This document shows, piece by piece, positions 12,201 to 31,700 of a stretch of DNA of 46,875 nt. This DNA comes from Bacteroidota bacterium (GTDB taxonomy: Bacteria; Bacteroidota; Bacteroidia; 2-12-FULL-35-15). The number at the start of each line of letters is the position of its first letter. Positions within the stretch are counted from its first letter, which is position 1. Below the pieces are notes generated by a model that was given only the letters and a program-made list of their open reading frames with translations, searched no databases and was not told the origin of the DNA. Location: positions 1 to 46,875 of the forward strand of contig JAHEXZ010000040.1 in NCBI GenBank assembly GCA_023251835.1. Direction: 5' to 3'. A program made the translations under genes and the position numbers.

Positions 12201-13592
12201 GTTTATGCAACCCAAACTATCTGTACCTGTAATACTATAAATTGTGGTGTCTGTTGGATGAGCAGTAACTGTAGCCCCTGTTACTGAACTCAATCCCGTG
12301 ACAGGTGACCACGAATAGCTGCTTGCTCCGCTTGCTGTTATGCTTATGGAATCTCCAATACAAATAGAAGGTGTGGAAGGAGTATTTGTAATTGTGGGCA
12401 ATGGATTGACCAGTATAGTTACATAAGCACTATCCGAGGAACACCCATTTGAAACAATAACAGTATAGGTAGTGGTAATTGTTGGTGAGGCAATTGGATT
12501 GGCGATATTGGGATTACTCAATCCTGTTGCAGGTTTCCATGTATAGAATATTCCCCCACTTCCATTAAGCGCTATACTATCGCCTGAACAAAGTGTGTCA
12601 TTAAGTCCTGCATTAGCAATAACCATTGGAGTGTATTCCCAGAAATCCTGTGTATAGGTACCATCCCATCCAGTCCCTATGTATCCCTTGCAGCCTATGG
12701 AAAAACCTACGGCACTATACCTTGCTGTTCCTCCAAAATCGGCCATTTGTGTCCATAAATTAGTTGCCGGATCCCATTCCCAGAAATCCTTTTGTGGCGT
12801 GTTATAGATAGAACCGGGAGGATTTTCATAATAATAAGTTCCTGTTCCGACATAACCTTTATTACCTATAGAAAAACTTACAGCAAGATAACGAATACCG
12901 CCAGGATATGGCGGCATCGTTGTCCAAGTATCTGTTGCCTGATCCCATTCATAAAAATCATTTAGGGATGTACCCGATGGGGAACCATAATACCCCAAGC
13001 CAATGTGACCTTTGTTACCGATAGAAAATCCCGTACCACCATGTCTTGCTGGGCCTGGTATACTGGCCTTTTGGAGCCAGGTGTCTGTTGCCTGATCCCA
13101 TTCCCAAAAATCATTACAAAGCCCGCTAGATCCGGCTCCAATCCCAATATATCCTTTGGTACCAATGGAAAAACCGACAGCATTGTATCTTCCCGTTCCA
13201 CCGAATGTTGCTTTCTGTGTCCAAATGTTGCTTGACTGATCCCATTCCCAGAAATCTTGATTGTAGCCACCATCACTTCCTGTTCCAATATAACCTTTGG
13301 TACCAATAGAAAAACCAATGGCATAGGATCTTGCTGTTCCGCCAAAGTCCGCTCTTTGCGTCCACACATCTGTTGCCTGATCCCATTCCCAAAAATCATT
13401 CCTGCTGACACCGTCATTTCCTGTTCCAAGGTATCCTTTGGTGCCTATGGAAAAACCTACACCAAAAGCTCTTGCCGTACCGCCAAAATTAGCTTTAGAA
13501 TTCCATGTTCCCTGGGCATTTACAGTGAGTACCCAAAGTATGACAATTGCTGTGATGGAAGGTTTTGTATTACTTTTGTATAGTTTCATCAT
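9252..13592 (-). CDS. Kelch/Gly-rich/PKD adhesin-like protein, T9SS type B
   Basis: 1446 aa, secreted. The open frame begins at a TTG at 13610; I choose the ATG at 13592 (another follows at 13589), which starts the signal peptide ending VLTVNAQ. Six Kelch-type repeats (about residues 20-322) share FGGTAR..AVGFSIGTKGYIG and DFWEWDQATD.WTQ, enough for a six-bladed propeller. Ig-like domains follow (to about 560), then a Ca-binding-like NGIDDDSDGLIDCADPD motif (about 562-578). Next is a large glycine-rich domain (about 590-860) opening with VPAGVTTIKVKAWGAGGGG and closing with GGDGLVVIQW. One more Ig-like domain, five PKD domains (about 934-1350, with WNFGDG motifs) and a type B C-terminal domain (AFSPNGDGDNDTF) complete it. 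The last four PKDs and most of the C-terminal domain are nearly identical to those of the neighbour at 13692. It is the third gene of a minus-strand set. Ligand unknown. Confidence 0.87.
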   Translation of the reverse strand: MMKLYKSNTKPSITAIVILWVLTVNAQGTWNSKANFGGTARAFGVGFSIGTKGYLGTGNDGVSRNDFWEWDQATDVWTQRADFGGTARSYAIGFSIGTKGYIGTGSDGGYNQDFWEWDQSSNIWTQKATFGGTGRYNAVGFSIGTKGYIGIGAGSSGLCNDFWEWDQATDTWLQKASIPGPARHGGTGFSIGNKGHIGLGYYGSPSGTSLNDFYEWDQATDTWTTMPPYPGGIRYLAVSFSIGNKGYVGTGTYYYENPPGSIYNTPQKDFWEWDPATNLWTQMADFGGTARYSAVGFSIGCKGYIGTGWDGTYTQDFWEYTPMVIANAGLNDTLCSGDSIALNGSGGIFYTWKPATGLSNPNIANPIASPTITTTYTVIVSNGCSSDSAYVTILVNPLPTITNTPSTPSICIGDSISITASGASSYSWSPVTGLSSVTGATVTAHPTDTTIYSITGTDSLGCINTTNFTVTINPSPIAVANSNNPVIVGSAINLSTDTVSGIVWTGPNSFTNFQQNPTIANAQINNSGIYQVIKTNSFGCKDTAETYVSVYQPEIQDNGIDDDSDGLIDCADPDLATLKQCYICGYDSIAWKTVTPEPGFNKGIAIKYTDFEQHFIVPAGVTTIKVKAWGAGGGGCCYTGINGGAGGLSTDELVTLPGETYIAVTGEGGWTTRWVNQTAQSTFGYGGSGSSIGATGISECSSGGGLSGLFLNYVAQVNARVIAGGGGGSGDVGNSDETSGGNGNNPLAGGYLPLIGQNGSGGGFGGGGGGYVGGISGIGRFSAGFSSGNVAEAGEGGSGFKYSGNGLVKYTPELNRYPPDTNDIHYIGGVGLGGMSNTPIGVAGDIKSGGDGLVVIQWFEPVDDLIITSSKDSICKGDTLTLIASGHLSYLWSPAATLSSDTSKIVIAAPVADITYGVISDYNNCKDTAQIQIFVYPTPVTDFSFTNDCLNDTAHFIDLSTLSSGTISSWNWNLGDTNFSTIQNANHLYAVAGLYQVTLTVSSNFGCADTISKTIERYPLPVVDFSPTIVCFYDTTSLTDMSAISGGTIVNWIWNFGDGTPNSNIQNPEHFFGLGNYYVTLIAISNKGCIDDSTKQVGVYPLPVANFDGSNICLNQPPALFTESSSVSTGSITSWQWDFGDNGSSSVQNPSHSYQNDGLFNVRLIVTSNNGCKDTLIKQTTIYPLPVVNFNADTSSGCKSLCVNFSDVSSVPGDSVILWNWSFGDGATAVGKNTEHCFFNDGQYDITLIPTSSQGCRDSLTQQQMITIWPSPVAGFITVPDAASILNPEFEFIDLSSGATQWQWSFGDSSNSGLQKPLHSFSDTGNFIVRQIVINQYGCKDTIEKTVIISPEFTIYIPNAFSPNGDGDNDTFIPIGNDIDVSEFELFIFDRWGNLIFQSNEINKPWDGKINHGKELAPQDTYVYSIKITDFNQQKHGYKGIVSLIK
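9370..10790 (-). repeat. Long homologous segment, copy 1 (partner 13808-15228)
   Basis: About 1.4 kb encoding five PKD domains and most of the type B C-terminal domain is nearly identical at the DNA level to 13808-15228, at a constant offset of about 4438 bases. The similarity stops sharply at the codons for NKPWDG: downstream of that point the last 35 or so residues of the two proteins differ. Confidence 0.85.
12620..13530 (-). repeat. Kelch-repeat coding array (six units)
   Basis: Six in-frame units of roughly 150 bases. The DNA for the DFWEWDQATD and GFSIGTKGYIG segments is strongly conserved between units, for example the repeated TGATCCCATTCCCA on the plus strand. This makes the region prone to unit gain or loss. 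Confidence 0.75.
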
Positions 13593-13691
13593 GTTGTTCT
13601 CTGAAAACAATGAGAGTATTTGAATAGCGAACTAAGAATAAAAAACTTTACAATTCTCAATTCTATTGCTATTGTTGATGCCAATGTTTTT

Positions 13692-16600
13692 TTATTTCAA
13701 GAGAATAACATTCCCGAAATAAGTATGTTTCTTTTTAAATACATCCAGTAGCTTTACCTTCCAAACATATATATCCTGCTGCATTAGTTTGCCACCTCTA
13801 TCTTTCCCATCCCATGGCTTATTAATTTCATTTGACTGAAAAATCAAATTGCCCCATCGGTCAAAGATAAACAATTCAAATTCACTTGCATCAATGCCGC
13901 TTCCGATAGGAATAAAAGTGTCATTATCTCCATCCCCATTAGGGCTAAAAGCATTGGGAATGTAAATAGTAAATTCGGGGCTGATAATAACAGTTTTCTC
14001 AATAGTGTCTTTACATCCATACTGATTGATAACAATCTGTTGTACTGTATATGTGCCTGTATCAGAAAAAGAGTGTAATGGTTTTTGTAAACCAGAGTTG
14101 GAAGAATCCCCAAAGCTCCATTGCCATTGTGTGGATCCGGAAGATAAATCAATGAATTCAAATTCAGGATTCAGGATAGAAGCTGCATCCGGAACAGTAA
14201 TAAATCCGGCAACAGGAGAAGGCCATATTGTAATCATCTGTTGTTGTGTAAGTGTATCACGACAGCCCTGAGAAGATGTTGAAATCAGTGTAATATCATA
14301 TTGACCATCATTGAAAAAACAGTGTTCTGTATTTTTGCCTACAACAGTTGCGCCATCTCCGAAGTTCCAGCTCCAAAGTATTATAGAGTCTCCGGGTACC
14401 GAGGATGCATCAGAAAAATTCACACATAAGGATTTGCAGCCACTGCTTGTATCAGCATTAAAATTAACCACTGGCAAAGGATAAATAGTTGTTTGTTTTA
14501 TAATAGTGTCTTTACAACCATTGTTGGAAGAAACAATAAGCTGCACATTAAAAAGTCCATCATTTTGATACGAGTGTGATGGATTTTCAATAGAAGAAAA
14601 ACTTCCATCTCCAAAATTCCATTGCCAGAAAGTAACGGAACCGGTTAGAACCGAAGAACTGTTGGCAAACTGAGCAGGAGGCTGATTCAAACATACATTA
14701 GAACCATCAAAATTGGCAACCGGAAGCGGATATACTCCCACCTGTTTGGTGCTATCATCAATACATCCCTTGTCAGATACAGCAATCAAGGTTACATAAT
14801 AATTCCCCAATCCAAAAAAATGTTGAGGATTTTGTGTGTTAGAATTCGGAGTACCATCCCCAAAATTCCATATCCAATTAACAATAGTTCCACTTGAAAT
14901 AGCCGACAGATCCGTTAACGAGGTAGTATCATAAAAACAAACTATAGTTGGACTAAAATCCACTACCGGCAAAGGGTATCGCTCAATTGTTTTTGAAATA
15001 GTATCGGCACAACCAAAGTTGGAAGAAGCAGTTAATGTTACCAGGTATAAGCCTGCTACAGCATATAAATGATTTGCATTTTGAATTGAAGAAAAATTAG
15101 CATCCCCAAAATTCCAGTTCCAACTGCTTATGGTTCCACTGCTTACGGTTGATAAATCAATGAAATGAGTAGTATCATTCGAACAGTCGTTTACAGAGCT
15201 AAAATCAACAACAGGAATCGGGTAAACATTTAGTTGACCCGTAACAGAATCTTTACAATTATTATTGGAGGTAACAAGCAATTGAACTGTGTAAGTGCCA
15301 TCGGTGCTATATAAATGCGATGGGCTTTGTAAAGAGGAAGCAACACCATCTCCGAAATTCCAATACCAGGAAAAATTTCCGTTTGCGATAGATGTTGTGT
15401 CTGTAAACTGTGCTGTATCATATATACAAACATTTGTAAAAGAAAAATCGGCATTAGGTACAGAAAAAATAACGACAGGTTGACTAATAGAATCTTTGCA
15501 GCCATTGTTGGAAGTTACAAGTAGTTCAACAGTGTATGCTCCATCAGCCGAATAATGATGCGTTGGATTTTGCAGTGAAGATATTGTTGCATCTCCAAAA
15601 TCCCATGCAAATATATTAATGGTTCCGCTACTAATGGTTGAACTATCAGTAAACTGTGCTGTATCATATTGACAAACATTATTAGTATTGAATGATGCAG
15701 TTGGCAGGGGATTTACAGTTATGTTGGTTGATGTTGAATCAATACACCCATTTACATCTGTAACCGTTACAGAATAATTTGTTGAATTAGGTGGATTAAC
15801 TGATATGCTGGTAGTTGTTTGTCCTCCCGGACTCCAATCATAGCTAACTCCTCCTGATGCAGTTAGTATGGTGCTTTGTCCGAAACAAATAGCGGTAGTT
15901 CCACTAATGTTAACTGTAGGTAATGGATTTACTATCACTGTAAAATTAGTAGTGTTTACACAACCCAGACTATCTGTACCTGCTATAGTATAAATTGTGG
16001 TGTCTGTTGGATAAGCAGTAATTGTAGCTCCAGTTACTGAACTCAATCCTGTAGCAGGCAACCATGAATAGCTGCTTGCTCCGCTTGCTGTTATATTTAT
16101 TGAATCTCCAATACAAATGACTGGTGTGGAAGGGGCGTTTGTGATTGTGGGCAAGGGATTGACCACAACATTTTTTGTAACAGAGTCGCTACATCCATTG
16201 CTGCTCGTAATAATTAAAGTTACCATGTATGTCCCAGAGTTTACATAATTATGTATTGGATTTTGAGTGGTATCTACCTGGCTGCCATCACCAAAATTCC
16301 ACTGCCAACCAACTAATGGGCATTGATTTACTGTTGAGTTATCAGTAAAAGTGGTTGAATATCCTAAGCATACGCTGGTAGAGGAAAAATCGGGAGTTAT
16401 TGCAACGGACAAAGCACAGGTCAATGTTAAAGTGGCATTGCCAGCTTCTCCAGGGGCGTAGGCAGTTTGTATGCTACAACCACTTCCACAAGTATATTGT
16501 ATATTGAGATCCTTTGGACAACCAACATGTGGATCATATCCGGGATCTATCCCGTAATTCATGTGGTAAGTGCATGAGGACAGGCTGTTACATGAAACGG

Positions 16601-16739
16601 CAACGGAATTAATACTTGTAGGGTTACCACAATTACCAGCATATATAGCACTTGTTACATTAATATTGCCATTGCATTGTGCAAATAAGTATGTGGTGAA
16701 GTGTAAAACTACAATATTCAGTAAAAGTTTTTTTTTCAT
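13692..16739 (-). CDS. SUEL-lectin-like / PKD adhesin-like protein, T9SS type B
   Basis: 1015 aa, secreted; signal peptide MKKKLLLNIVVLHFTTYLFA cleaved before QC. The first mature domain (about 22-110) is Cys-rich (Cys 22, 37, 50, 56, 74, 84, 88, 108). Its pattern INVTSAIYAG.CG, CNSLSSCTY and GCPKDLNIQYTC resembles the SUEL/galactose- and rhamnose-binding lectin fold (there: A.YG, C.GK.SC, K.L.V.Y.C). A PKD domain, two Ig-like domains and seven more PKD domains follow (about 120-920), several with WNFGDG. The C-terminal type B sorting domain (from about 923) has AFSPNGDGDNDTF and ends FGNVILLK. The gene starts 3 bases after the stop of the lectin-type gene at 16743, so the two are surely co-transcribed. 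The lectin call is inference from spacing of motifs. The rest is secure. Confidence 0.87.
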   Translation of the reverse strand: MKKKLLLNIVVLHFTTYLFAQCNGNINVTSAIYAGNCGNPTSINSVAVSCNSLSSCTYHMNYGIDPGYDPHVGCPKDLNIQYTCGSGCSIQTAYAPGEAGNATLTLTCALSVAITPDFSSTSVCLGYSTTFTDNSTVNQCPLVGWQWNFGDGSQVDTTQNPIHNYVNSGTYMVTLIITSSNGCSDSVTKNVVVNPLPTITNAPSTPVICIGDSINITASGASSYSWLPATGLSSVTGATITAYPTDTTIYTIAGTDSLGCVNTTNFTVIVNPLPTVNISGTTAICFGQSTILTASGGVSYDWSPGGQTTTSISVNPPNSTNYSVTVTDVNGCIDSTSTNITVNPLPTASFNTNNVCQYDTAQFTDSSTISSGTINIFAWDFGDATISSLQNPTHHYSADGAYTVELLVTSNNGCKDSISQPVVIFSVPNADFSFTNVCIYDTAQFTDTTSIANGNFSWYWNFGDGVASSLQSPSHLYSTDGTYTVQLLVTSNNNCKDSVTGQLNVYPIPVVDFSSVNDCSNDTTHFIDLSTVSSGTISSWNWNFGDANFSSIQNANHLYAVAGLYLVTLTASSNFGCADTISKTIERYPLPVVDFSPTIVCFYDTTSLTDLSAISSGTIVNWIWNFGDGTPNSNTQNPQHFFGLGNYYVTLIAVSDKGCIDDSTKQVGVYPLPVANFDGSNVCLNQPPAQFANSSSVLTGSVTFWQWNFGDGSFSSIENPSHSYQNDGLFNVQLIVSSNNGCKDTIIKQTTIYPLPVVNFNADTSSGCKSLCVNFSDASSVPGDSIILWSWNFGDGATVVGKNTEHCFFNDGQYDITLISTSSQGCRDTLTQQQMITIWPSPVAGFITVPDAASILNPEFEFIDLSSGSTQWQWSFGDSSNSGLQKPLHSFSDTGTYTVQQIVINQYGCKDTIEKTVIISPEFTIYIPNAFSPNGDGDNDTFIPIGSGIDASEFELFIFDRWGNLIFQSNEINKPWDGKDRGGKLMQQDIYVWKVKLLDVFKKKHTYFGNVILLK
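13808..15228 (-). repeat. Long homologous segment, copy 2 (partner 9370-10790)
   Basis: Counterpart of the segment at 9370-10790. A second, shorter shared block covers an Ig-like domain (about 12160-12415 against about 15930-16170). The two genes are therefore mosaics sharing separate blocks, not simple end-to-end duplicates. Confidence 0.82.
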
Positions 16740-16742
16740 TTT

Positions 16743-19700
16743 TTACCTCACTAATGTTACCATGCCTTTATAATCATATTTCTTCCGGTTAATGTCTGTT
16801 ATTTTAATAGAATATATATATATATCCTGCTGGGCGGCTTCTGTTCCATGATTTGCCGTGCCATCCCAGGGTTTATTGATATCGTCAGAGGCAAAAATTA
16901 AATTTCCCCATCGGTCAAATATCTTCATGTCAAATGTTGTAGCAAAGAGCCCTTTACAACCGAATGTATCATTTATGCCATCACCATTGGGAGTAAAGGC
17001 ATTTGGAACGAACAATATAAAATCGGGTTCAATTTTTATTGTTTGAGAAGCCGTATCTCTGCATGTATATTGATTAGATGTGATTAGAACAATTTGATAA
17101 ATGCCTGTGTCGGCATAGATATGTGGTAAAGGAGTTTGGGATAATACAGTATCCATATCTCCAAAATCCCACATCCATGCTGCTACACCCAAAGATAAAT
17201 CTGTAACAGAAATAACCGGATTTACAATGCTGGTAGTTTGAGGTAGAACTGAAAAGGCCGCTATAGGGTCTGGATATACAGTGATAAAATTATTTTTTGT
17301 CAGCACTCCGGTACAGCCGCTATCCGAAGTGACCGTTAATGTTATAGTATACGGTAAGGGAGAATATGTTGAACCACCATTAGCTAGGTCATTCACATAA
17401 CAGTGATTTTGCGCATTGCTACCAATAGCACCATCACCAAAATCCCATAGCCAATTTGTATTAACTCCTGAATCAATATCAGACAAATCAATAAAACTTA
17501 CGCATAAAGGGCCACAGCCTATTGAATCGCTGGTTGAAAAGTTTACATCCGGATTAGGATTAACTGTAACCGTGGCAATACCATCCTGTGCCTGGGAACA
17601 AGAGGTTGAACTTGATTCCTGAACACTAACTAATGTATATGCATAAGTTCCATTATCACCTGTTGGAACAGAAACAGATGCACTATTTCCAATAGTGGTG
17701 CTTAATGTTTGATTTGGACCACTATTGAGTGTATAGGTAAACGTGTAAGGTTGTGTGCCATTAGCGCCAGTGAAGGTAATTATTGGCGGTGCTGCATTTT
17801 CGCATAGACCTGTAGTGCCTGTTATTAATGCAGTTGGCAATGGATTAACCGTTACTGTTGCAGTTCCCGTTTGCAATTGAGAGCAGGTGGTTGAACTGCC
17901 ATCCTGTATACTTACAAGATCATATACAAAGATACCTGCAGCAGATGTGGAAACTACCACAGTTGCATCATTTGCACTATTGGAAGAACTTACTGTTTGA
18001 TTGTTTCCATTATTAATAGTAAAAGTAAAGGTATAGGGAGGCGTTCCGTTTGCCCCAGCGAAAGTAATAGTGGGTTGACCGGAATCCTGGCATACCACTG
18101 CTGTCCCTGTTATTGTAGCAGTCGGCAAGGGATTAACAGTTACTATAGCGCTTCCGGTTTGTGCCTGAGAGCAGGTAGCTGAACTGGCATCCTGAACACT
18201 TATGAGATCATAAGTAAATGAACCGACAACGGATGTTGGTGCAGCAACACCTGCACTATTTCCGTTTGTTGAAACTACAGTCTGGCTCGTCCCTCCATTA
18301 ATTGTGTAAGTGAAGGTATAAGGCACAGTTCCGTTTGCTCCGGTAAATATAATATCAGGAGCAGACGCATTTTTACATACAGTTATATCGCTTGTAATTG
18401 TAGCTGTTGGTAGTGGATTAACGGTTATTGTTGCACTTCCGCTTTGTAACTGAATACAGCTGGCGGTGCTTGCATCTTTTACGCTTACTAATCCATACGT
18501 GAAAGTTCCTTCAACACTGGTTGGTACCGATACTGTTATACTGTTTCCACCTGTAGTTGTAACAGTTGGTTGCACAACGCTATTAACCATATAAGTAAAG
18601 GTATAAGGTGCAGTTGCACTTGATCCAGTAAAAATAATATCCGGAGCAGGGGCATTTTTACAAACAATAGTTGTGCCTGTTACTGTTGCTGTTGGCAGTG
18701 GATTTATTGTTATTGTGGCACTTCCTGTTTGTGGCTGAGAACAAGTTGTAGAACTTGCATCCTGCACGCTTACCAATGAATAAACAAAGGAGCCAGCGGT
18801 AGTTGTTGGGACTGGCAATGTTACACTATTACCACCGGTAGTAACTATTGTCAGGTTTATTCCATTATTTATAGTATATGTAAAGGTATAAGGAGCAGTT
18901 CCCCCGGCACCAGTAAATGTTATATCTGGCGATGCAGCATCTTCACATACAGTTGTTGAACCCATTATTGTTGCTGTTGGCAATGGATTCACAGTTACAG
19001 TAACGGTCCCGCTCTGTGTTTGAGAACAATAAACAGAGCTTCCGCTTTGAACACTGACTAATGAATATATAAAAGTGCCAGATGTTGCGGTTGAAACAGA
19101 AACGGCTATACTGCTATCGTTGCTTGTTGTTACCGTTTGATTTGCTCCTCCATTAATTGTATATGTGAATGTATAAGGAGTAGATCCTCCAAATCCTGTA
19201 AATGTGATATCTGGTGCTGTTACTCCCTGGCACACTGTTGTGGTTCCGCTAATAGATGCTGTTGGCAGTGAAGTGACAGTTATAACAGCGGTTCCGCTTT
19301 GAGACTGCGAGCAGCCGTTGGCATCAGCTACATTCAATAGTATATAATTGAAAGTTCCTGTTGCACCTGTTGGAGCAGGAATAGTTACGCTATTTCCGCT
19401 ACTTGTTGTTACTGTCTGATTAGCTCCCCCATTTATCATGTATGTAAATGTATAGGGAGTCGTTCCTGATGCTCCGGTAAATGTAATATCGGGAGAAGGA
19501 GCATCTTTACATACTGATGTGGTACCCGTTATGGTAGCATTCAACGATGTGTTTACTGTTATTTCAATACTGGTGGAAGATGTGCAACCATACCTGTCTG
19601 TAGCTGTAACACTATAAGTTGTGGTTGTTAGTGGTGTTACGGTTGGTCCGCTGGATGTTGATACAAATCCTCCCAGGTTGGATATCCAACTGTATGTGTA

Positions 19701-20288
19701 TGGTGAAGAACCCAAAATAGTGCTTGCAGAAAGGGTTGCGCTTTGTCCGGCACAAATAGATGTTGCGCTCGGAGTTATTGTGGTAACAGGACAAAGATTA
19801 ACCTCTATAACAGATTTAGAGCCACTGGAAGTACAACTTAAATCATTCCACATTCCATTTGGATAAATCTGAACACAATCCTCATCACCGGAATTATTTG
19901 GCTCACCTCCGCTCCAGTTAGTATATACAATGGGACTTTGGTCATACCAGACAAAATTATTTTCACTGGCAACATCATTAAACCCTATCCAGATAATACC
20001 ACTAAAGCCATGTGTGTTCAAATCATTAACAATACAATTATTTTCAGTTGCCGATTGTACTGATATCAGGTTAGCACCGTAGTTTTGAGCCCAGGCCTGG
20101 GCTGCGTTTCCTGTTTGGGATATAGGGTTATAAAAATATATGCTGCATGTAGAAAGGCAGTTTTCCAGTTCTGTACAGCCAGCAGCGGTGAATGTTTGAC
20201 GAATCAGGTTTAGATCACAACCTGTTTGTGCTAATGAAGTGCTAAAAAATAAAAGACAAATAATACTTATGTAGTAAATATTTCTCAT
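16743..20288 (-). CDS. C-type-lectin adhesin with seven tandem repeats, T9SS type B
   Basis: 1181 aa, secreted; signal peptide ends FFSTSLA before QTGC. Residues about 24-166 form a C-type lectin domain: AQAWAQNYGANLISVQS, an EPN motif at 129-131 and WND at 147-149, the usual calcium and mannose-type sugar ligands, with Cys 138, 152 and 166 nearby. One Ig-like domain follows, then seven tandem repeats of about 95 residues (about 247-911), each with TATITGTT.VC, GTTPYTFTYTINGG, a Thr/Ser-rich strand and CSQ.QTGSATVTVNPLP. Two PKD-like domains and a type B C-terminal domain (FTPNGDGINDTF, ending KGMVTLVR) finish it. It is first in the minus-strand set 20288-9252. The EPN motif suggests binding of mannose-like sugars, an inference from known lectins. 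Confidence 0.9.
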   Translation of the reverse strand: MRNIYYISIICLLFFSTSLAQTGCDLNLIRQTFTAAGCTELENCLSTCSIYFYNPISQTGNAAQAWAQNYGANLISVQSATENNCIVNDLNTHGFSGIIWIGFNDVASENNFVWYDQSPIVYTNWSGGEPNNSGDEDCVQIYPNGMWNDLSCTSSGSKSVIEVNLCPVTTITPSATSICAGQSATLSASTILGSSPYTYSWISNLGGFVSTSSGPTVTPLTTTTYSVTATDRYGCTSSTSIEITVNTSLNATITGTTSVCKDAPSPDITFTGASGTTPYTFTYMINGGANQTVTTSSGNSVTIPAPTGATGTFNYILLNVADANGCSQSQSGTAVITVTSLPTASISGTTTVCQGVTAPDITFTGFGGSTPYTFTYTINGGANQTVTTSNDSSIAVSVSTATSGTFIYSLVSVQSGSSVYCSQTQSGTVTVTVNPLPTATIMGSTTVCEDAASPDITFTGAGGTAPYTFTYTINNGINLTIVTTGGNSVTLPVPTTTAGSFVYSLVSVQDASSTTCSQPQTGSATITINPLPTATVTGTTIVCKNAPAPDIIFTGSSATAPYTFTYMVNSVVQPTVTTTGGNSITVSVPTSVEGTFTYGLVSVKDASTASCIQLQSGSATITVNPLPTATITSDITVCKNASAPDIIFTGANGTVPYTFTYTINGGTSQTVVSTNGNSAGVAAPTSVVGSFTYDLISVQDASSATCSQAQTGSAIVTVNPLPTATITGTAVVCQDSGQPTITFAGANGTPPYTFTFTINNGNNQTVSSSNSANDATVVVSTSAAGIFVYDLVSIQDGSSTTCSQLQTGTATVTVNPLPTALITGTTGLCENAAPPIITFTGANGTQPYTFTYTLNSGPNQTLSTTIGNSASVSVPTGDNGTYAYTLVSVQESSSTSCSQAQDGIATVTVNPNPDVNFSTSDSIGCGPLCVSFIDLSDIDSGVNTNWLWDFGDGAIGSNAQNHCYVNDLANGGSTYSPLPYTITLTVTSDSGCTGVLTKNNFITVYPDPIAAFSVLPQTTSIVNPVISVTDLSLGVAAWMWDFGDMDTVLSQTPLPHIYADTGIYQIVLITSNQYTCRDTASQTIKIEPDFILFVPNAFTPNGDGINDTFGCKGLFATTFDMKIFDRWGNLIFASDDINKPWDGTANHGTEAAQQDIYIYSIKITDINRKKYDYKGMVTLVR
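17555..19546 (-). repeat. Seven-unit tandem coding repeat
   Basis: Seven in-frame units of about 285 bases encode the Ig-like repeats of the C-type-lectin protein. Boundaries are marked by the codons for VNPLPTATITGT. Units differ in sequence, so the array is not a very recent expansion. Confidence 0.85.
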
Positions 20289-20455: not shown

Positions 20456-22357
20456 TCAATATGCCCTGATATTTTCACCCTCCATATAGTTGATAAAAGA
20501 TTTATTTGCTACTTTGTTTCCTCCCGGAGTTGGATAGTTTCCCGTAAAGTACCAATCGCCTTTGTTAGCGGGACATGCATTGTGCAGGCCTTCTATAGAT
20601 TGGTATATTATTTCAACTTCGGCATCAATATCTGTAGAACGCAATATGTCTGCAATTTTTTTTGAAATTTGTTCTGCAGTAAATTCTTTATATATTTCTT
20701 TTACTACATTAGTAATATTCTCTTTAGAAAGACCTTCCTGAGCTTTTGCTTTTTCATATAATTCGTCTAAAAGATTTTCCTTAAACTGATCTTTTAACAA
20801 TTGAACAGCAGCCTGGAAAGCGATGAAATCGCCTAATTTAGCCATATCTATGCCATAACAATCCGGGTAGCGGATCTGGGGAGCCGAAGAAACAACAATA
20901 ATTTTTTTAGGTCCCAGTCGATCCAATATTTTTAGAATGCTTTGTTTTAGAGTTGTTCCCCGGACTATAGAGTCGTCAAGGATTACCAGGTTATCTACTC
21001 CGCGTTTTATTACACCATAGGTTGTATCATAGATGTGCGCCACCATATCATCGCGTTGGTTATCATTTGTGATAAATGTGCGGAGTTTTGCATCTTTAAT
21101 TGCTATTTTATGAACACGTGGATGAATAGAAAGGATTTCTGATAATTGTGATTCATTAAGATTGGTTCCTAACTGAAGTATTTTATTCTTTTTTACTGTA
21201 TTCAGGTAGCTGTGTAACCCTTCAATCATGCCGCCAAAAGCTACTTCTGCCGTATTAGGAATGTAGGAGAAAACAGTGTTTTTTAAATCGTAGTCAAGTG
21301 CCTTTAAAATAGCCGGACAAAGCTGATATCCTAACTGTTGACGCTCTTTGTAAATAGATGCATCGCTACCTCTTGAAAAATAAATACGTTCAAAGGAACA
21401 TGGTGTTTTTTCACGGGGCGTCAGTATTTCGTACTCACCAAAACTTCCATCTTTTTTAATAATGATTGAATATCCCGGCTGTAGTTCTTTAATTTTTTCA
21501 AGAGGAACATTAAAAACCGTTTGAATTACCGGACGTTCTGATGTTACAACTACTACTTCATCGTCAGAATAATAAAATACGGGGCGAATACCATTTGGAT
21601 CACGGAGAACAAAAGCATCGCCATGACCTAATAATCCAGCCATAGCGTATCCCCCATCCCATTTCTTACTCGCATCTTTTAAAATTCGTTGCACATTTAA
21701 GTGTTTTGCTATTAATGCCGAAATAGTTTCATGAGAATGGCCTGCCTGTTTAAATTTTCTGAATAAACGTTCATTTTCCTCATCCAGAAAGTGGCCTATC
21801 TTTTCCATTACAGTTACAGTATCTGTTTTTTCTTTAGGATGTTGGCCTAACTCTACCAACTGTTCAAACAGTTCATCAACGTTAGTAAGATTAAAATTGC
21901 CAGCCACAACAAGGTTACGGGTCATCCAATTATTCTGACGTAAAAACGGATGACAATTTTCAAGACCATTACCACCAAAAGTGCCATATCGCAGGTGTCC
22001 CAGGAACAGCTCACCTGTATAAGCAAGATTCTTTTTAAGCCATGCAGCATCTTTTAGTTTATCCGGATTTTTAGCATATATCTCCTCAAATTTGTTGAAT
22101 ATTTTACCAAATATTTCTTTAATGGCTCCACTTCCAACAGCTCTTGTACGGCTGATATAGCGGGTTCCGGGTTCTGCATCAAACTTTATATTGGCAACTC
22201 CGGCACCATCCTGCCCGCGGTTGTGCTGTTTCTCCATCAGGAGATATAACTTATTTATTCCATAAAGAGGAGTGCCATATTTTTTAATATAATAATCCAA
22301 TGGCTTCAGTAAACGGATAACTGCTATTCCACACTCATGTTTTATGGCATCACTCAT
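20456..22357 (-). CDS. purF: Amidophosphoribosyltransferase (PurF family, long variant)
   Basis: 633 aa. PurF makes 5-phosphoribosylamine from PRPP and glutamine, the first step of purine synthesis. Cys9 in KHECGIAVI is the expected nucleophile of an N-terminal glutaminase domain; the eight residues before it would have to be removed as a short propeptide. RGQDGAGVAN (48-57) and GHLRYGTFG (120-128) are class II amidotransferase motifs. DDSIVRGTT (461-469) is the PRPP-binding loop of the phosphoribosyltransferase domain. The protein is longer than the usual 470-505 aa, with insertions in both halves, and it lacks the Cys pair of iron-sulphur PurF proteins. This long form is common in Bacteroidota and a second, canonical PurF may exist elsewhere, so the exact reaction is less certain than the family. 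Stop is TGA. Confidence 0.85.
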   Translation of the reverse strand: MSDAIKHECGIAVIRLLKPLDYYIKKYGTPLYGINKLYLLMEKQHNRGQDGAGVANIKFDAEPGTRYISRTRAVGSGAIKEIFGKIFNKFEEIYAKNPDKLKDAAWLKKNLAYTGELFLGHLRYGTFGGNGLENCHPFLRQNNWMTRNLVVAGNFNLTNVDELFEQLVELGQHPKEKTDTVTVMEKIGHFLDEENERLFRKFKQAGHSHETISALIAKHLNVQRILKDASKKWDGGYAMAGLLGHGDAFVLRDPNGIRPVFYYSDDEVVVVTSERPVIQTVFNVPLEKIKELQPGYSIIIKKDGSFGEYEILTPREKTPCSFERIYFSRGSDASIYKERQQLGYQLCPAILKALDYDLKNTVFSYIPNTAEVAFGGMIEGLHSYLNTVKKNKILQLGTNLNESQLSEILSIHPRVHKIAIKDAKLRTFITNDNQRDDMVAHIYDTTYGVIKRGVDNLVILDDSIVRGTTLKQSILKILDRLGPKKIIVVSSAPQIRYPDCYGIDMAKLGDFIAFQAAVQLLKDQFKENLLDELYEKAKAQEGLSKENITNVVKEIYKEFTAEQISKKIADILRSTDIDAEVEIIYQSIEGLHNACPANKGDWYFTGNYPTPGGNKVANKSFINYMEGENIRAY

Positions 22358-22411
22358 AATAAAAAACTTAAAATATTTCCTGATTGTAAATTTACGATTT
22401 TTTGGTGGTTT

Positions 22412-22549
22412 TTATATCGAATTGAGTTTGCATTGGTTAAATGCGGATAAATGCCTGGTATAAACACTATTCCAATCAAGACATTCTACAGAATAACCTT
22501 TTGTTTCAGGAATTAACTTATAAGTTAATGTTATTGTTTTTATGCTCAC
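22412..22549 (-). pseudogene. hicB: Truncated HicB-like antitoxin remnant
   Basis: Right after hicA (15-base gap) a short frame opens at a GTG at 22549 and gives 45 residues. The first 31 (LTYKLIPETKGYSVECLDW followed by NSVYT) match the start of HicB antitoxins, which begin with a partly degraded RNase H-like beta-alpha fold of the form Y...P...GY.V.C.D....V. The sequence then loses all resemblance (RHLSAFNQC) and stops at 22412. The usual continuation (G.T.EEA..N..EAI and a DNA-binding tail) is missing in all three frames. No ATG start is seen. It looks like an antitoxin gene cut by a deletion or frameshift. Confidence 0.6.
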
Positions 22550-22564
22550 TTTATATTGGCTTGT

Positions 22565-22747
22565 TTAATTTTTTTCTGCTAATTCAACCATTGCTTTGAT
22601 GCTACTAAGCGTCCCTTTTCTTATTTCATCGTGCATTGGTACTATACAAGAATAGCCATTTTTCTTTAATTTTTTGTGGCTTCCATTTTGGCTAATTTCT
22701 TCCCATCCATTCTTTAGTAGCATTGAAACAGTTTCTTTACCACGCAT
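22565..22747 (-). CDS. hicA: HicA-family mRNA interferase toxin
   Basis: 60 aa. HicA toxins are small double-stranded-RNA-binding-fold ribonucleases that cut mRNA and are held in check by HicB. The protein has the family pattern: SMLLKNGWEEISQNGSHKKL with the catalytic His24 in GSH, then a GYSCIVPMHDEIRKGTLSSI segment in which VP.H....GTL.SI is the conserved end. The length is normal. It lies 53 bases after rfbA in the same direction. The neighbouring hicB seems to be broken, so the toxin may be inactive, weakly expressed, or controlled by another antitoxin. It was clearly identified from sequence pattern alone. Confidence 0.88.
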   Translation of the reverse strand: MRGKETVSMLLKNGWEEISQNGSHKKLKKNGYSCIVPMHDEIRKGTLSSIKAMVELAEKN

Positions 22748-22800
22748 TTTAAAAATGCAAAGTGAGCTGAAATGTGCGTGGTATCAGGATTAATCCCGAT

Positions 22801-23664
22801 TTATTGTTCTGCGAGCTTCATCAGGTAGTCGCCATAACCGCTTTTCATCAATGGTGAAGCAAGTGCTTTTAACTGTTCTTTATTAATAAAATTCATACGA
22901 TAGGCTACTTCTTCAATACATCCTATACGTAACCCCTGGCGTTCTTCAATTACCTGAACAAACTGGCTGGCCTGCATAAGTGAAGTAAATGTTCCTGTAT
23001 CGAGCCAGGCGGTACCTCTGTCCATAATACCCACTTTTAGCTTGCCTTGTTGAAGATAATATTTGTTTACATCAGTAATCTCGTACTCCCCACGTGCGCT
23101 TGGTTTTAAATTTTTAGAAATTTCAATTACACTGTTATCATAAAAATACAAACCCGGTACTGCATAATTTGATTTTGGCTGTTTAGGTTTCTCTTCAATA
23201 GAAACAGCATTTCCTTTTGCATCAAACTCAACTACACCATAACGTTCAGGGTCCGATACGTGGTAAGCAAACACAACACCTCCTTCAGGATTTTGATGCT
23301 GTTGCAATAATCTTCCCAAGCCAGCTCCGTAAAAAATATTATCACCAAGTATTAGAGCTACTTTATCATTACCAATATATTTTTCGCCAATCACAAAGGC
23401 TTGTGCAAGGCCATTGGGAACTTCCTGAACAGCATACGAAAACCTACATCCCAAACTTTTTCCATCGCCCAAGAGGCGTTCAAATTGCGGCAAGTCATGT
23501 GGTGTAGAGATGATTAGGATTTCTGATATACCCGCCATCATTAGCACAGAAAGCGGATAATAAATCATTGGTTTGTCGTATACCGGCATAAGTTGCTTAC
23601 TAACAGCAAGTGTTAGTGGGTGTAAGCGGGTTCCGGAGCCTCCGGCTAAGATTATTCCTTTCAT
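22801..23664 (-). CDS. rfbA: Glucose-1-phosphate thymidylyltransferase
   Basis: 287 aa, normal length. Makes dTDP-glucose from glucose-1-phosphate and dTTP, the first step toward dTDP-L-rhamnose and related sugars of surface polysaccharides. The nucleotide-binding start [11 protein letters not shown] (8-18), [19 protein letters not shown] (21-39), the metal-site segment ILGDNIFYG (105-113) and later [20 protein letters not shown] and GTAWLDTGT segments are all intact. The rest of the rhamnose pathway (rfbB, C, D) is not in the window. It is followed by hicA in the same direction. Confidence 0.96.
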
Positions 23665-23770: not shown

Positions 23771-25693
23771 TTACTTACTCCTTAATATATCAACAGACCC
23801 TCTAAGTGTCATATTTGTATTTTCGAATTTAATTACATAATAATACGTGCCATCCGGCAGTTCCGAGCCATTATAAGTTCCCTGCCAATCATTTGCATAT
23901 GTCTTTTTTCTAAACACTTCACTACCATAAATATTATAAATAAACACTTCATTATCCGGATAATTTTGTATCCCCTCTACATACCAGTTATCATTTAAAC
24001 CATCGCCATTAGGAGTGAATAAATTTGATACTTTTCCATTAAATACAGCTTGTATGACCATTATTACAACTGTATCCAGGTTTGTACAGTTATTGCTATC
24101 CGTTACAGTTAATATGTATTGTGTAGTAGATGAAGGGCTTGCTGTTGGAGTAAATAATACCGGGTTACTTAATCCTGTTAATGGCATCCAATCGGGGGTT
24201 CCGCTGCCTGTACCATTTAACACCACTGATTCCCCCTGATTAATGCTTGCATCATTCCCTGCATTAACAGCAGGAAGAGGCACCACCGTTATATATACAA
24301 TCGCTGTAGTATCAATATTACAAACACCACTTTGAACAATAGCTGCATACCAGCTTGTTTGCGTTAATCCGCTGTATATATAAGATGTTGTTATATTAAC
24401 AATCGCATTCCAACTTACCCCATTATCTGTGGAAGACAACCAGCCTGTAACATTTCCAATATTTCCAGACAAAGTAAGCGTATCCTGGTTACTTCCGGCA
24501 CATGCAGTAGCACTGCCCGAAATAGTCCCTGCAACTGTTTGAGGAGCTACAGATACAATTTCCGTTGCAGAGCTATCGGCAGTACAGGCACCACTTTGTA
24601 CAATTGCCTTATACCAGGTTGTAGACGGTAAATTAGAATAATTTTCCGTATTAGTAGTATTTGAAATTGTATTCCACGTAACACTATTATCCGTTGATGA
24701 CAGCCAGTTAATAATACTTCCTGTATAGCCTGATAATGTTAATATACCCGTGGCTGGCACTCCGCAATAAATGCCTCCTCCGCTAACTGTACCAACTACA
24801 GTTGCAGGGCTTACATTAATTACAAAAACAGGGGTTGTATCCACACTGCAAATCCCACTCTGCACAATTACGCGATATGATGTGGATTGAGTTAAATTAA
24901 AATAGGATAAAGTATCTGTTGTATCTGCTACAGGTGCCCAGTTTGTTCCATTATCCACAGATAGTTCCCATCCCATAATTGTGCCTGTATATCCTGTGAG
25001 AGTGAGTGTTGCATTGTTACCTGCTGCACACACTGTGGTAACTCCACTTATTGTTCCTGCTATAGTTAAAGGAGAAACCGTAAAAGAAACAGGAGATGAA
25101 GTGTCCGAAGGACATAAAGAATCACTCTGTACAACAGCAGTGTATAAAGTGCTTTGAGTAATATTTGTATAATTTTCCGTATTAGTAGTATTTGAAATGA
25201 CAGACCAGGAATTGCCGCCATCAGTTGAAGACAACCAGTATATAATATTTCCTGAATAGCCTGTTAAAGTGAGCACTCCGGCTCCTGTGCTGTCGCAATA
25301 GGAACCCCCTCCTGAAATAGTACCACCTATACTTTCCGGATAAATGGTAATACAAACTACAGTTGATGTGTCGGGTGGAAAACCACCATCCTGCACTATT
25401 GCCCTGTAGCAGGTTGTTTGATTGAGGTTGAAATAGGTTTGATTAGGTGTTGTATTCGCATTGCTGTTCCATGTAAGGCCACCATCTGTGGTTGATTGCC
25501 AGTTTAATATGTTACCCACATAACCAGATACAGTTACAACACCTGAATTAGCAGTTGTACAATAAGTGGCTGCACCGGATGTTGTTCCTCCCACAGATTG
25601 AGCCAAAACCAGTCCCATTCTGCATGTTATTGTCAGAAAACAATTTCCTGCAAATAGTATTAAAAATGCAATTCGCTTCTTATTTGAAAGCAT
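23771..25693 (-). CDS. T9SS type B cargo protein, five Ig-like repeats
   Basis: 640 aa, secreted; signal peptide ends GLVLAQ. Five repeats of about 85 residues (about 32-465), each starting like SVGGTTSG, TIAGTISG or TVVGTVSG, carry a single early Cys, a W.SSTDNG..WN centre and a W(Y)(K/R)AIVQSG.C strand. A PKD-like Ig domain (NAGNDASINQGESVVLNGTG) follows. The type B C-terminal domain (from about 555) has LFTPNGDGLNDNWYVEGI and DGTYYYVIKFENT...GSVDILRSK. The protein is a longer paralogue of the one at 4799-6169 (three repeats), although 18 kb away on the other strand. It starts 41 bases after the stop of the giant adhesin gene and is probably on its transcript. Function beyond surface exposure is unknown. 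Confidence 0.85.
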   Translation of the reverse strand: MLSNKKRIAFLILFAGNCFLTITCRMGLVLAQSVGGTTSGAATYCTTANSGVVTVSGYVGNILNWQSTTDGGLTWNSNANTTPNQTYFNLNQTTCYRAIVQDGGFPPDTSTVVCITIYPESIGGTISGGGSYCDSTGAGVLTLTGYSGNIIYWLSSTDGGNSWSVISNTTNTENYTNITQSTLYTAVVQSDSLCPSDTSSPVSFTVSPLTIAGTISGVTTVCAAGNNATLTLTGYTGTIMGWELSVDNGTNWAPVADTTDTLSYFNLTQSTSYRVIVQSGICSVDTTPVFVINVSPATVVGTVSGGGIYCGVPATGILTLSGYTGSIINWLSSTDNSVTWNTISNTTNTENYSNLPSTTWYKAIVQSGACTADSSATEIVSVAPQTVAGTISGSATACAGSNQDTLTLSGNIGNVTGWLSSTDNGVSWNAIVNITTSYIYSGLTQTSWYAAIVQSGVCNIDTTAIVYITVVPLPAVNAGNDASINQGESVVLNGTGSGTPDWMPLTGLSNPVLFTPTASPSSTTQYILTVTDSNNCTNLDTVVIMVIQAVFNGKVSNLFTPNGDGLNDNWYVEGIQNYPDNEVFIYNIYGSEVFRKKTYANDWQGTYNGSELPDGTYYYVIKFENTNMTLRGSVDILRSK

Positions 25694-25734
25694 ACCCGTC
25701 TTTTTCCCGTTTTTTTGGCGAAATTAATTCATTT

Positions 25735-28700
25735 TTACTTTAACAGATTAACATGACCTATATATTTATGACTATTACCCCTGGTATCTTTCAAATTAAC
25801 TTTCCACACATAAACATCATTCTGGGCTAATTCTGAGCCATTCTTTACTTTACCATTCCACCCTTTTGTATAATCATCACTAAAAAATATAAGTTCACCC
25901 CACCGGTCAAAGATGTATAATTCAAATGTATTTATATCCCAGCCAACACCTACAGGTAAGAATATCTCATTTACATCGTCCTCATCGGGGGTAAAGGTGT
26001 TAGGCGCATAAAACACAAATTCGTCTATCACGTCAACCTGCTTATCTGCTGTATCTATGCAACCAAACTGATTGGTAACAATCAATTCTGTAATATATGT
26101 TCCAACACCACTATAAGTATGAGTTGGATTTTTTATAGTTGACGTATCGGATGTTGAAGAAGTGTCGTTAAAATTCCAAAGCCAGGAGGTTATTGTTGTA
26201 GTTGAAATATCCGAATAATTAACCAATGGATATAATGAACTTGCAGGAACAGGATTAATTAAAAAATCAGCATCAGGCTTTGGATAAACAGTAATGCTGT
26301 TTGCACCTTGTATTGTAGTACTACACCCCAGGGTTGTAGAGATGGTAAGCATAACCGTGTATATACTGTCACTTGTATATGTATGCGATGAAGATGCTCC
26401 TGAACCTGTTGTTGCATCACCATAATTCCAGCTATATATAACTCCACTGCTATCACTTGTTGCATTAAAACTAATTGTTAAAGGCTCACAACCACTTGTA
26501 TCGTTTTGTGTAAATGAACCGGAAGGATTAACATTAACTATTACACTAACCGTATCTGAAGCGGGCTCTGAACAACCATCCGTAACCGTAACACTGTAAA
26601 CGGCTGGTGAAGCTGCAAGTGAAGGAGATACTGTTTGTAGTTGTGTGCTTGCTCCATTGCTCCATGCATAAATATAGGGATTACCATTTCCTCCTGAAAC
26701 GTTTACTGACAATATTATACTATCGCCATCGCATATAGCGGTATCGGCAGTTGTGGCAAGTAACAAAGGAGGAGGAATCACTACCAGTATATCTAAAGGC
26801 CCTGCCGTACAACCATTCACATCAGATACTATAACTGAATAGGTAGAGCTTGAATCCGGCATAACAATATGAGGCCCCGTGCCGGACAGACCAAAACCAG
26901 CACCAAACCATGAATACAAATAGTTAGTTGTACCACCAACGCCTTGTGCATATACTTGTGCTGTATCTCTGTAACATACTGTATCTGGCGGACTTATCAT
27001 TAATATAAGAGGCGGAGGCTGTGAAACTACCACTGTTCCGCTTACAGTACAACCTCCGGCATCGGTAACCAATACATTGTACGCACCCTGAACAAGCCCT
27101 GTAGCTGTATCCGCAGTTTGTGATGAAGGTGTCCATAAATAGCTAAATGGAGGAACTCCTAATCCACTGTTCATAAAAACTTTAGCCTTTCCTGTAGCGC
27201 CACCATTACATAATACTGCCGTGCTTGTAATACTATCTATCTGCGGGCCGGAAGCTGAAGAAACAGTTACCGTATCAGTAATGCTGCAATTGTTCGTATC
27301 CCTTATTACACAGATATAATCTCCTGTAGGTAAGTTCAGAGCTTGTGCCGTAGTTTGTATATTTATATCATTCCACTGATAATAATACGGAGGAGTACCA
27401 CCTGTTGGAGCAACAGTTGCATCGCCATTGGCAGAATTACAGGAAGCAGGGTTAGAACTACCTGTTACGGATAATGGAGGAGGGTCTGTAATTGTCCATG
27501 TTTGAGCTGTAGAACAATTTTTCATATCAGTCAGAATAAGTGTATATGAACCGGCCGGAAGATTGGTTGCTGTAGCACCAGCACTTATATTTGGCAGCCA
27601 GCTAAAACTATAATAGGGGGTTCCTCCAACAACGTTTACTGAAATAACACCATTGCTATCACCGTAACAAGTAATATCAGCTATCATACTTTGCCCTATT
27701 ATTAGGGCATCCGGCTGTGTAATAACTGTTGAAGAATCTATTCTGGTGCAGCCATTCGCGTCAGCTATTGTTACCTTATAGGTATCTGCACACAAGCCTG
27801 AAACACTCGCAGTATCTGGTGCTCCGGGAGCATCCCATACAATAGACAAAGGAGGGGTGCCGCCCCCATACAGCACCGTTGCCGCACCATCGCATACTCC
27901 ATAACAACTTACATTCTGCTTATTTGTAATAGCGGAAACAAGCTGAGGAGGAGCAACTATTGTAACAGAAGCAGAACCAATACATCCGGCATCATCTGTT
28001 ACCGTTAATGTATTTATTCCTGAACTCAGATTAGCCGGACTCTGCACCGTTTGTCCTCCGGGTGTCCATAGAAAGTTATAAGGAGCTATTCCACTGGAAA
28101 CTGTTGCTATTGCGGTTCCTGTTGATACACCAAAACAGGTAAGGTCGGTGAAACTTGTAATGTTTACAACGGGACCCGTAATATCGTTTATGTTTGCATT
28201 GGTGGTTAATGTACATCCCATCCCATCGGTGACTGTTATAATATAGGTATTTGCTACCAGCCCGGAAACACAATCCATCGTGTCTGTTGCACCGGAACTC
28301 CATAAATATTTATATGTTAGCGTTCCCCCGGAAACTACTATGCAGGCTCCTCCATTTGCCTGGCCACAATTGGCGCTGGTTGTTGAAACCGTTGCTGTAA
28401 TAGCTGTCGGTTCTACCAATTCTATGGTTCCACTGGCAGAACATCCTAAGGAATCAGTAACTGTAACAGTGTGAGTTCCTGCACACAATGTATTCGGATT
28501 ATTTGTAGTCTGCAAACCGGGTTGCCACAAATAATTGTATGGAGAATTACCCCCTGAATAAGTAGCAATGATTTCGCCATTACACGTGCTGTTACATGGA
28601 ATCTTTACAACATTAACCGCACCTGTTAAAGGTTCCGGCTGGTCTATAGTGTCTGATAAAAGTGAGATACAAGCATTTACATCTGTTACAGTACAGGTAA

Positions 28701-31700
28701 ATGCACCTGCACACAAACCGGCAGCTGTTGAGGTTGTTGAACCTCCTGACAACCAATTGTAAGTATATGGAGCAGTACCGCCTGTAACTGCAAGCTGCAC
28801 AAAGCCATCACACATACCATAACAGGTAGGATTACCAAGGGCTACCACTGACAATATTAATGGCGCAGGAGTTCCTATAGTTGCAGCTGCATTTGCAGGA
28901 CAACCATGAGCATCTGTAACGGCTAAAGAATATGTACCTGCACTTAATCCTGTTGCAGTATCAGTAGCCTGATGCATGCTGTCACTCCAGGAATACAAAT
29001 AAGGAGCATAACCATTGGTCAACGTTGCTGTTGCTGTACCATTACTGTCTCCCGGACAAGATACACTTGTAGTTGTAATAGATATTGAAACTGCAGGCGG
29101 ATTAGTTAAAGTAACAGAAGCCAGCTTTATACACCCCCCTGCATCTGTAACAGTAACATTGTAAGTACCGCTTCCAAGATTTGAAACAGCAGCAGTAGCG
29201 GGGTTTCCTGGGATAGCCCATGAATATGAATAAGGCGGAGCACCTCCCAAAGCACTTGCCTGAATAGAACCATCGGAAAAGCCATTACAGGAAGGATTTA
29301 CCCCAACAGCATTTGCTATTAATAAGGAAGGTTCGGTAATGATAACACTGGCAGCAGCAGAACAATTATTGGCATCGGTTGCGATAACAGAATAAATACC
29401 TGCTCCAAGGTTAGTAGCAGTGGGTGTTGTTTGCCCATCATTCCATAAATAGGTAAAAGGCAATACACCCCCGGTTGTATTAATTGTTGCACTACCATCC
29501 TGTAATCCGTTACAGGAAACATCAGTTGCTGCTATAGTTGCTACAGGCCCTGCTGAATTGGCAATAGAAACCGGAATACTGTAGGTACATAAGTTGACAT
29601 CCTGCATAGTCACGGTATACGTTCCGGCTGCTAAACCAGTAGCAGTGGCTCCCGTCTGCCCTCCTGACCATGTCCATGTATAGGGAGCAAAACCTCCGGA
29701 ACCTGTCACCGTTGCACTACCGTTTGCCTGTCCGCAGCTCGCATTGGAAGCAGTAGCTGTAATGGCAAGGGCTGGTGGCTGAGTAATATTTGCAGCAGTT
29801 GATGTTGTACATCCTTTAGAATCAGTAATAGTTACAGAATAGGTTCCAATGCTTAATCCGGAAACCGAAGATGTAGTATATCCTCCCGGCAACCATACGT
29901 ATGAGTATGGGGTTGTTCCTCCGGACACTGTTGCTGTAGCAGTACCTGTTGAACCTCCAAAACAACCCACGTTTGTAAAGGTGGCATTCACAGCCAAAAC
30001 ATTAGGTTGTGTAACTGTTGCTGTTGTTGTTGAAGAACACCCGTAAGCATTAGTAACCGTAACGTTATAGGTAGCTGCACTCAAATTGGTGGCTGTAGCC
30101 AGTGTCTGGCCATTGCTCCACAAATAAGTGTATGGCGTTAATCCTCCCGATGCAGTGACGGTAGCCGTGCCATTGCTGCCGCCATTACAAAAAACCGGTG
30201 TTTGTGACGTTTGCAGTGATGGCGGCCCTCCAACATTGATTATTATTTTTGCTGTATCAACCTTGCCGCAGGTTCCTGTTGTATCCGAAACAAAAAGTGA
30301 AGCTGTATATGTACCAATAGTTGTATATGTGTGAGTTGGAGATGAAATAGAAACCTGTGGACTTCCATCTCCAAAGTCCCATTTGAATGTGGTACCGGCA
30401 CTGCCAGCCATGCTGAAAGGTACGGTATAAGGAGCACAACCGACAGGTGATCCGGATAAGGAAGCAACAGCATCAGGGCTTACCTTTAAATCCATTTTAA
30501 TTACCGCATTATTGCAGTTAAAACTGTTATTGGTACGCGACCAGGCAGTGGTAGTAGTAGGAAAATTATCCGAACCTCCACAGCTTGCACATACCGACTG
30601 ATATATAAACCCTCTTTTGTCGAACCGGCTTGTACCGCCATCTACATGGTCTCCCACCCAACTGTTTTCTCCAAAGAAAGTAGCATATAATAATGATTGA
30701 GCATTGGGTCTTAATACCATAAAATAAAAATCACAACCATCGGTAGTAGACTTATAAGCATTTGCTGTAACAGGCATACCAGTGGTAGTTGAAGGCGATG
30801 GGTTTCCAAACGCTGCACTACATCTTCCCCACCCTGCAATGTATATACTCTGGCAGCTGTCTACCAGAAATGCTGTAGGAGAAATATTAGGATTAGCTGT
30901 GCCGCTGCCAATAACTGTTGAAAAAACAGTTGTATTCAGCTGGCTATTGAGCTTATGAATAAATTGCCCGCTGTTAGGATTAGAATAAACGCCAGCGGTA
31001 ACAGGGTAAGTTCCTTTTGTCTGGCCAAACACGTAAATATCGCCATTGGCATCTGTTTCTATCAGGTAAGACTGGTCGTAAGCAGAAGTACCCAGGTAGG
31101 TAGAATAAACAGCCGATGTTGCAGTGCTGTTAAGTGCCGTAATAAATCCATCTGCAGCCCCTCCTTTGTAGGCAGAATTTAAAACACCTGCAGTAGTTGG
31201 GAAATCAGCACTTGCAGTGCCTCCTGTAACGTATATATTGTTTCCATTCAGTTTTATGCCATAAGCAGCATCGTCAGCACTGCCGCCAAGATAAGTGCTG
31301 AAGGCCAATGAAGTAAGTGTGCTGTTCATTTTGAAAACACAACCATCCTGAGTTCCGCCAAGTGTTATATCAAAAGCCCCTGCTGTGGTTGGGAAATTGG
31401 TTGAACGGGTAGAGCCTGCCACATATACATTGCTGCTATTATCAAGTATAATCTCGCTTCTGCCATCATCTGCATAATTAAATTTAAGAGAGGACATTGA
31501 AGATTCTACAGGAGTAATATTTACTCCATCATCTCCCGTTCCTCCAAGAAAAGTTGAGGCCAGCAAAGCTCCGGAAGTATTAAATTTTCCAACAATAATA
31601 TCATATCCCCCATTGAAAGTTGCATCATAAACTCCTGAAGTAACAGGGAAATTGGAAGAATTCGTCCTGCCCGCCACGTATAACTCATTATTACTGTTTA

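Follow-up and report, generated by a model that had tools for sequence, protein, structure and literature searches.

Remains of a hicAB toxin–antitoxin pair, probably damaged in both genes, between an rfbA-like and a purF-like gene

A 46,875-nt contig stretch of a Bacteroidota bacterium (the window; coordinates refer to its forward strand) carries the remains of a hicAB toxin–antitoxin pair, located on the minus strand between an rfbA-like and a purF-like gene (Table 1). The locus is probably a degenerate hicAB remnant in which both genes are damaged, meaning a relic or at most a weak HicA. An earlier note on this DNA had seen an intact toxin without its antitoxin, which would have to be silent or controlled. 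The decayed hicB beside hicA was confirmed, and another HicB exists in the genome (contig C149). The paradox itself is weakened by an abnormal HicA end. Judged from the sequence, this abnormal tail is what is new with respect to the earlier note. If both genes are damaged, no 'toxin without antitoxin' paradox is needed.

The hicA-like frame matched the Pfam family HicA_toxin (PF07927) with an E-value of 2.8e-13 and 50.2 bits (cut-off 27). hicA residues 3–50 were aligned to profile positions 1–52 of 58. The NCBIfam search listed nothing for this frame. The Pfam match stops at residue 50, and the last ~10 residues depart from the family. Hence, the previous description of hicA as intact and full length with its catalytic His24 holds for the 60-codon frame, the GSH motif and the domain, but not for the end of the protein. 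The GTG start reported with it belongs to the HicB-like frame, as hicA starts with ATG.

From searches of 59, 395 and 395 genomes, only the best matches were retained as homologous loci. Two more copies of the window locus (L001 and L011) were dropped ahead of the count. Sixty loci were taken as hicA, one being the window and one (L014) a chance match, which left 58. The end of these HicA proteins is mostly a helix of the type GTL-x-x-I-L-K-Q-A-x-I. The window frame is family-like through GTLSSI and continues with KAMVELAEKN and a stop. Thus, the family-like end (ILKQAxI type), a typical but not strictly defining feature, is not in frame. In another frame, KIKQANIK followed by a stop is readable and overlaps the present hicA stop.

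A seven-column position matrix was built on the 44 of the 58 homologues that fit a loose C-terminal motif. The out-of-frame motif word ranked second among 65,605 stop-free seven-residue words (window, six frames), and the best word of the in-frame hicA tail did not rank above 4712 on the same matrix. The out-of-frame end has a TGA stop that shares bases with the GTG start of the HicB-like frame (GTGA). Close linkage or overlap of the genes is usual in compact hicAB operons as described in PMC10865869. Taken together, the former hicA end seems to have remained legible outside the reading frame, some nine extra codons separating the in-frame half of the motif from the out-of-frame half.

The GTG frame comprises 45 codons (22412–22549), starts 15 nt after the present hicA stop and ends 54 nt before the purF start. 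Its first ~31 residues appear HicB-like and the following ones unrelated, in agreement with the earlier note. The frame scored 8.9 bits on a profile of 59 HicBs (residues 4–31 to profile positions 9–35), and none of 5000 shuffles reached this value. The profile was built on 54 HicBs encoded next to homologous hicA genes plus five seeds; four of the seeds are such neighbours too, and the fifth is the orphan HicB of this genome. No match for the 45-codon frame was found in Pfam or NCBIfam. The partial RNase H domain of HicB is not complete, as the alignment is limited to the profile positions given above. The remnant had no relative in its own genome, and a long HicB of the helix-turn-helix type was rejected as its source, because a profile of nine long HicBs gave no support.

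Inspection by eye of all three minus-strand frames as far as purF showed nothing similar to the rest of HicB. A sequencing frameshift in the hicB region, raised earlier as a possible cause, cannot restore a full hicB, because the rest is in none of these frames and little room is left before purF. Accordingly, the adjacent complete toxin and antitoxin of a type II hicAB system are not found here: the partner is a fragment. A hicB neighbour was present in 57 of the 58 homologous hicA loci. In the exception (L060), hicA lies close to the border of its stretch, which covers just 157 nt ahead of the gene.

The ancestral pair would have consisted of hicA followed by hicB, with the GTGA stop/start overlap. 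hicA would then have gained length changes near its 3′ end, moving the C-terminal helix motif out of frame. hicB would have lost everything after about codon 31, as far as the purF upstream region, which would have been spared because purF needs it. The loss of the antitoxin was probably tolerated because the toxin's end had also changed, and the relic is probably harmless. We infer the order of events, the loss of toxicity and the promoter reason for the breakpoint; HicA would have lost its function with predicted helix 44–59 still formed by the new tail.

Counting the window's own locus, 21 of 30 loci of the genus had a GTAAWTYD match (the GTAAATTT type) no more than 90 nt ahead of purF, compared with 4 of 29 in the 290 nt further upstream. 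The element presumably serves as the −7 box of a promoter; it is continuous with purF in the window, and the hicB remnant ends shortly before the purF upstream region. This position would be expected if the region were protected by selection. The DNA between the remnant and purF (126 nt) had no second copy in the genome and gave only short, weak matches.

No second HicA was found in the 4.1-Mb, 171-contig genome, and only one of the 35 congeners had a HicA match (G014, 38% identity). The locus therefore looks patchy and acquired. The site is not shared with relatives: 30 rfbA loci were kept, and the ~1.5-kb flank contained purF in the window's own locus but in none of the other 29. A full hicAB with the same flanks, which the earlier note named as contrary evidence, was thus not found among these relatives. 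Contig C149 carries the one HicB of the genome above the cut-off, without an adjacent HicA; the check for other hicB genes proposed earlier was thus positive, although the C149 HicB differs by eye from the remnant. This orphan HicB (L002 1480–1707) is intact and has 75 residues.

Several points weigh against damage to both genes. The hicA frame has no internal stop, and Gly22, Ser23 and His24 are all retained. In Burkholderia HicA, changes of Gly22 or His24 abolish toxicity (PMC3969222). The single-sequence AlphaFold2 model of the hicA product had a mean predicted local distance difference test score of 91.6 (other four models: 73.7–79.2). The predicted order was helix, three strands, helix (H-E-E-E-H), similar to a double-stranded RNA-binding domain, with a C-terminal helix at 44–59. 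Foldseek matched the model best to HicA proteins, HicAB complexes and the HicA-like 1whz of Thermus: the top six PDB entries had E-values of 9.4e-3 to 0.18 (5yrz_B 9.4e-3, 6hpb_A 1.4e-2; none ≤0.001). Given the kept Gly22, Ser23 and His24 and a confident model that resembles solved HicA structures, the protein could still be folded and functional. Moreover, the family end is not invariant, because 14 of the 58 homologues do not fit the matrix motif (two are truncated by a stop, and several have variant ends). The statistics of the HicB remnant are modest: on a profile of 16 HicBs placed downstream of hicA, its score was reached by 26 of 5000 shuffles. Finally, back-translated patterns found no close relatives of hicA in genome and viral contig collections, and plasmids (23 records) and phages (59 records) contained only hicA relatives with <60% identity.

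With the catalytic motif and predicted fold retained, hicA could encode an active solo toxin that is simply unexpressed or held in trans by the C149 orphan HicB, an intact 75-codon gene in a genome whose only HicA found is this one. We consider this unlikely, given the altered C-terminal end of HicA. Furthermore, the orphan HicB does not resemble the remnant by eye, and cross-neutralisation would be putative.

Less probable still, some of the damage could stem from an error of sequencing or assembly, either a wrong A-run length at the hicA end, a misjoin of rfbA and purF, or both. The frame change adjoins a run of seven A, the assembly is a draft, and the rfbA–purF neighbourhood was peculiar to this genome among the loci kept. 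However, an A-run error alone gives neither a restored hicB nor a family-like HicA end, because the ~nine extra codons would still part the motif halves, and no break separates purF from its upstream element.

It is very improbable that HicA was remodelled and not broken, having escaped its own HicB to persist as a stand-alone RNase-like regulator under other control. The escape would follow from the new C-terminal helix, which changes helix alpha-2, the face along HicB; in the modelled complexes of PMC10865869, this helix lies along HicB. Least likely of all is a working mini-antitoxin encoded by the 45-codon frame: HicB-like residues are retained and GTGA would couple its start to the former hicA stop, but the present hicA stop lies 15 nt ahead of the GTG.

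The locus can be compared with known systems. As in the bicistronic hicAB of classes 1, 3 and 4 described in PMC10865869, hicA comes first, overlaps hicB shortly and encodes a HicA of ~60 residues with GSH. Unlike in these, hicB is cut after ~31 codons and the C-terminal helix of HicA is off-family. Truncation of hicB by mutation has already been described in the same source, where such pseudogenes stand beside hicA as here. In our case, however, hicB falls far short of functional small HicBs (60–90 residues), and changes affect hicA as well. Solo toxins and antitoxins have also been described already (PMC2701414). The locus resembles the solo toxin genes left from toxin–antitoxin operons in having a toxin-like gene without a complete partner, but a remnant of the partner can still be seen. 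On a small scale, the locus illustrates clearly how a toxin–antitoxin pair decays, and before a paradox is read into a lone 'intact' toxin in an annotation, the ends of that toxin should be compared with the family. Apart from this, the finding is ordinary and alters nothing known.

Table 1. Features of the hicAB locus and its flanks in the window
Feature	Position	Strand	Remarks
hicA-like frame	22565..22747	-	60 codons, ATG start, TAA stop, GSH at residues 22-24; PF07927 match
Out-of-frame match to the HicA C-terminal helix motif	22546..22572	-	Frame translation and position matrix; TGA stop overlaps the hicB-like GTG
HicB-like N-terminal remnant	22457..22549	-	~31 codons, GTG start; profile of 59 HicBs
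Non-HicB tail of the HicB-like frame	22412..22456	-	14 codons and stop; negative score on the 59-HicB profile
GTAAATTT element upstream of purF	22388..22395	-	Present in most congeners
Palindrome GCATT-N5-AATGC over the hicA start	22744..22758	.	Possible old HicB operator
Second palindrome copy, inside the non-HicB tail	22430..22444	.	Pattern match GCATT-N5-AATGC
Flanking purF-like gene	20456..22357	-	Match in 34/36 genus genomes
Flanking rfbA-like gene	22801..23664	-	Match in 36/36 genus genomes

The palindrome GCATT-N5-AATGC occurred twice in the window (0.15 expected), and 2 of 100 shuffles contained at least two matches. These two were the only exact sites genome-wide; the pattern was devised after seeing them. 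Taken as a 19-nt inverted pair, 22427–22445 and 22743–22761 are complementary at 16 of 19 positions, the best value of its stretch; 4 of 175 window stretches reach at least 16, so that the pair is only mildly unusual in this respect. HicB proteins bind palindromic operators; Yersinia, for instance, has two of 15 bp (PMC11594946). The pair is possibly a remnant of a HicB operator.

Around the hicA start, there is also an exact 9-nt inverted repeat (TACCACGCA / TGCGTGGTA, 22738–22746 and 22775–22783, 28 nt apart). A putative RNA hairpin at the hicA start had a z-score of −1.78 (8 of 200 shuffles folded as well). A direct repeat between the DNA upstream of hicA and the tail, suggested by eye, was rejected, since 453 of 6170 background stretches scored as well. 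A mobile element with terminal repeats was considered and not supported.

From their sequences, we take the flanking genes to be a purF-like amidophosphoribosyltransferase and an rfbA-like glucose-1-phosphate thymidylyltransferase. The G+C content was 0.333 for hicA and 0.28 for the hicB remnant, compared with 0.388 for the whole window. On both sides of the locus are very long frames (9252–20288 and 23771–32703), the longest of 2322 codons. Those whose translation was inspected were repetitive and secreted-looking, with a C-terminal stretch that we assume to be of the gliding/type-IX-secretion kind.

On C149, near the orphan hicB, the last 106 nt of a presumably carB-like gene are duplicated exactly (L135 5108–5213 and 6173–6278; C149 35607–35712 and 36672–36777). 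The duplicate sits on the far side of what we take to be a nucleotidyltransferase-HEPN pair. A third copy of 45 nt (96%) follows beyond the orphan hicB (L135 6643–6687). The fourth, an exact 33-nt copy (C21:44–76, L136), is at the start of a 3.4-kb contig, ~100 nt before a presumed transposase-like gene. Genes of the toxin–antitoxin type thus lie between copies of the carB-like 3′ end, an arrangement reminiscent of insertions that restore the terminus of the gene they enter.
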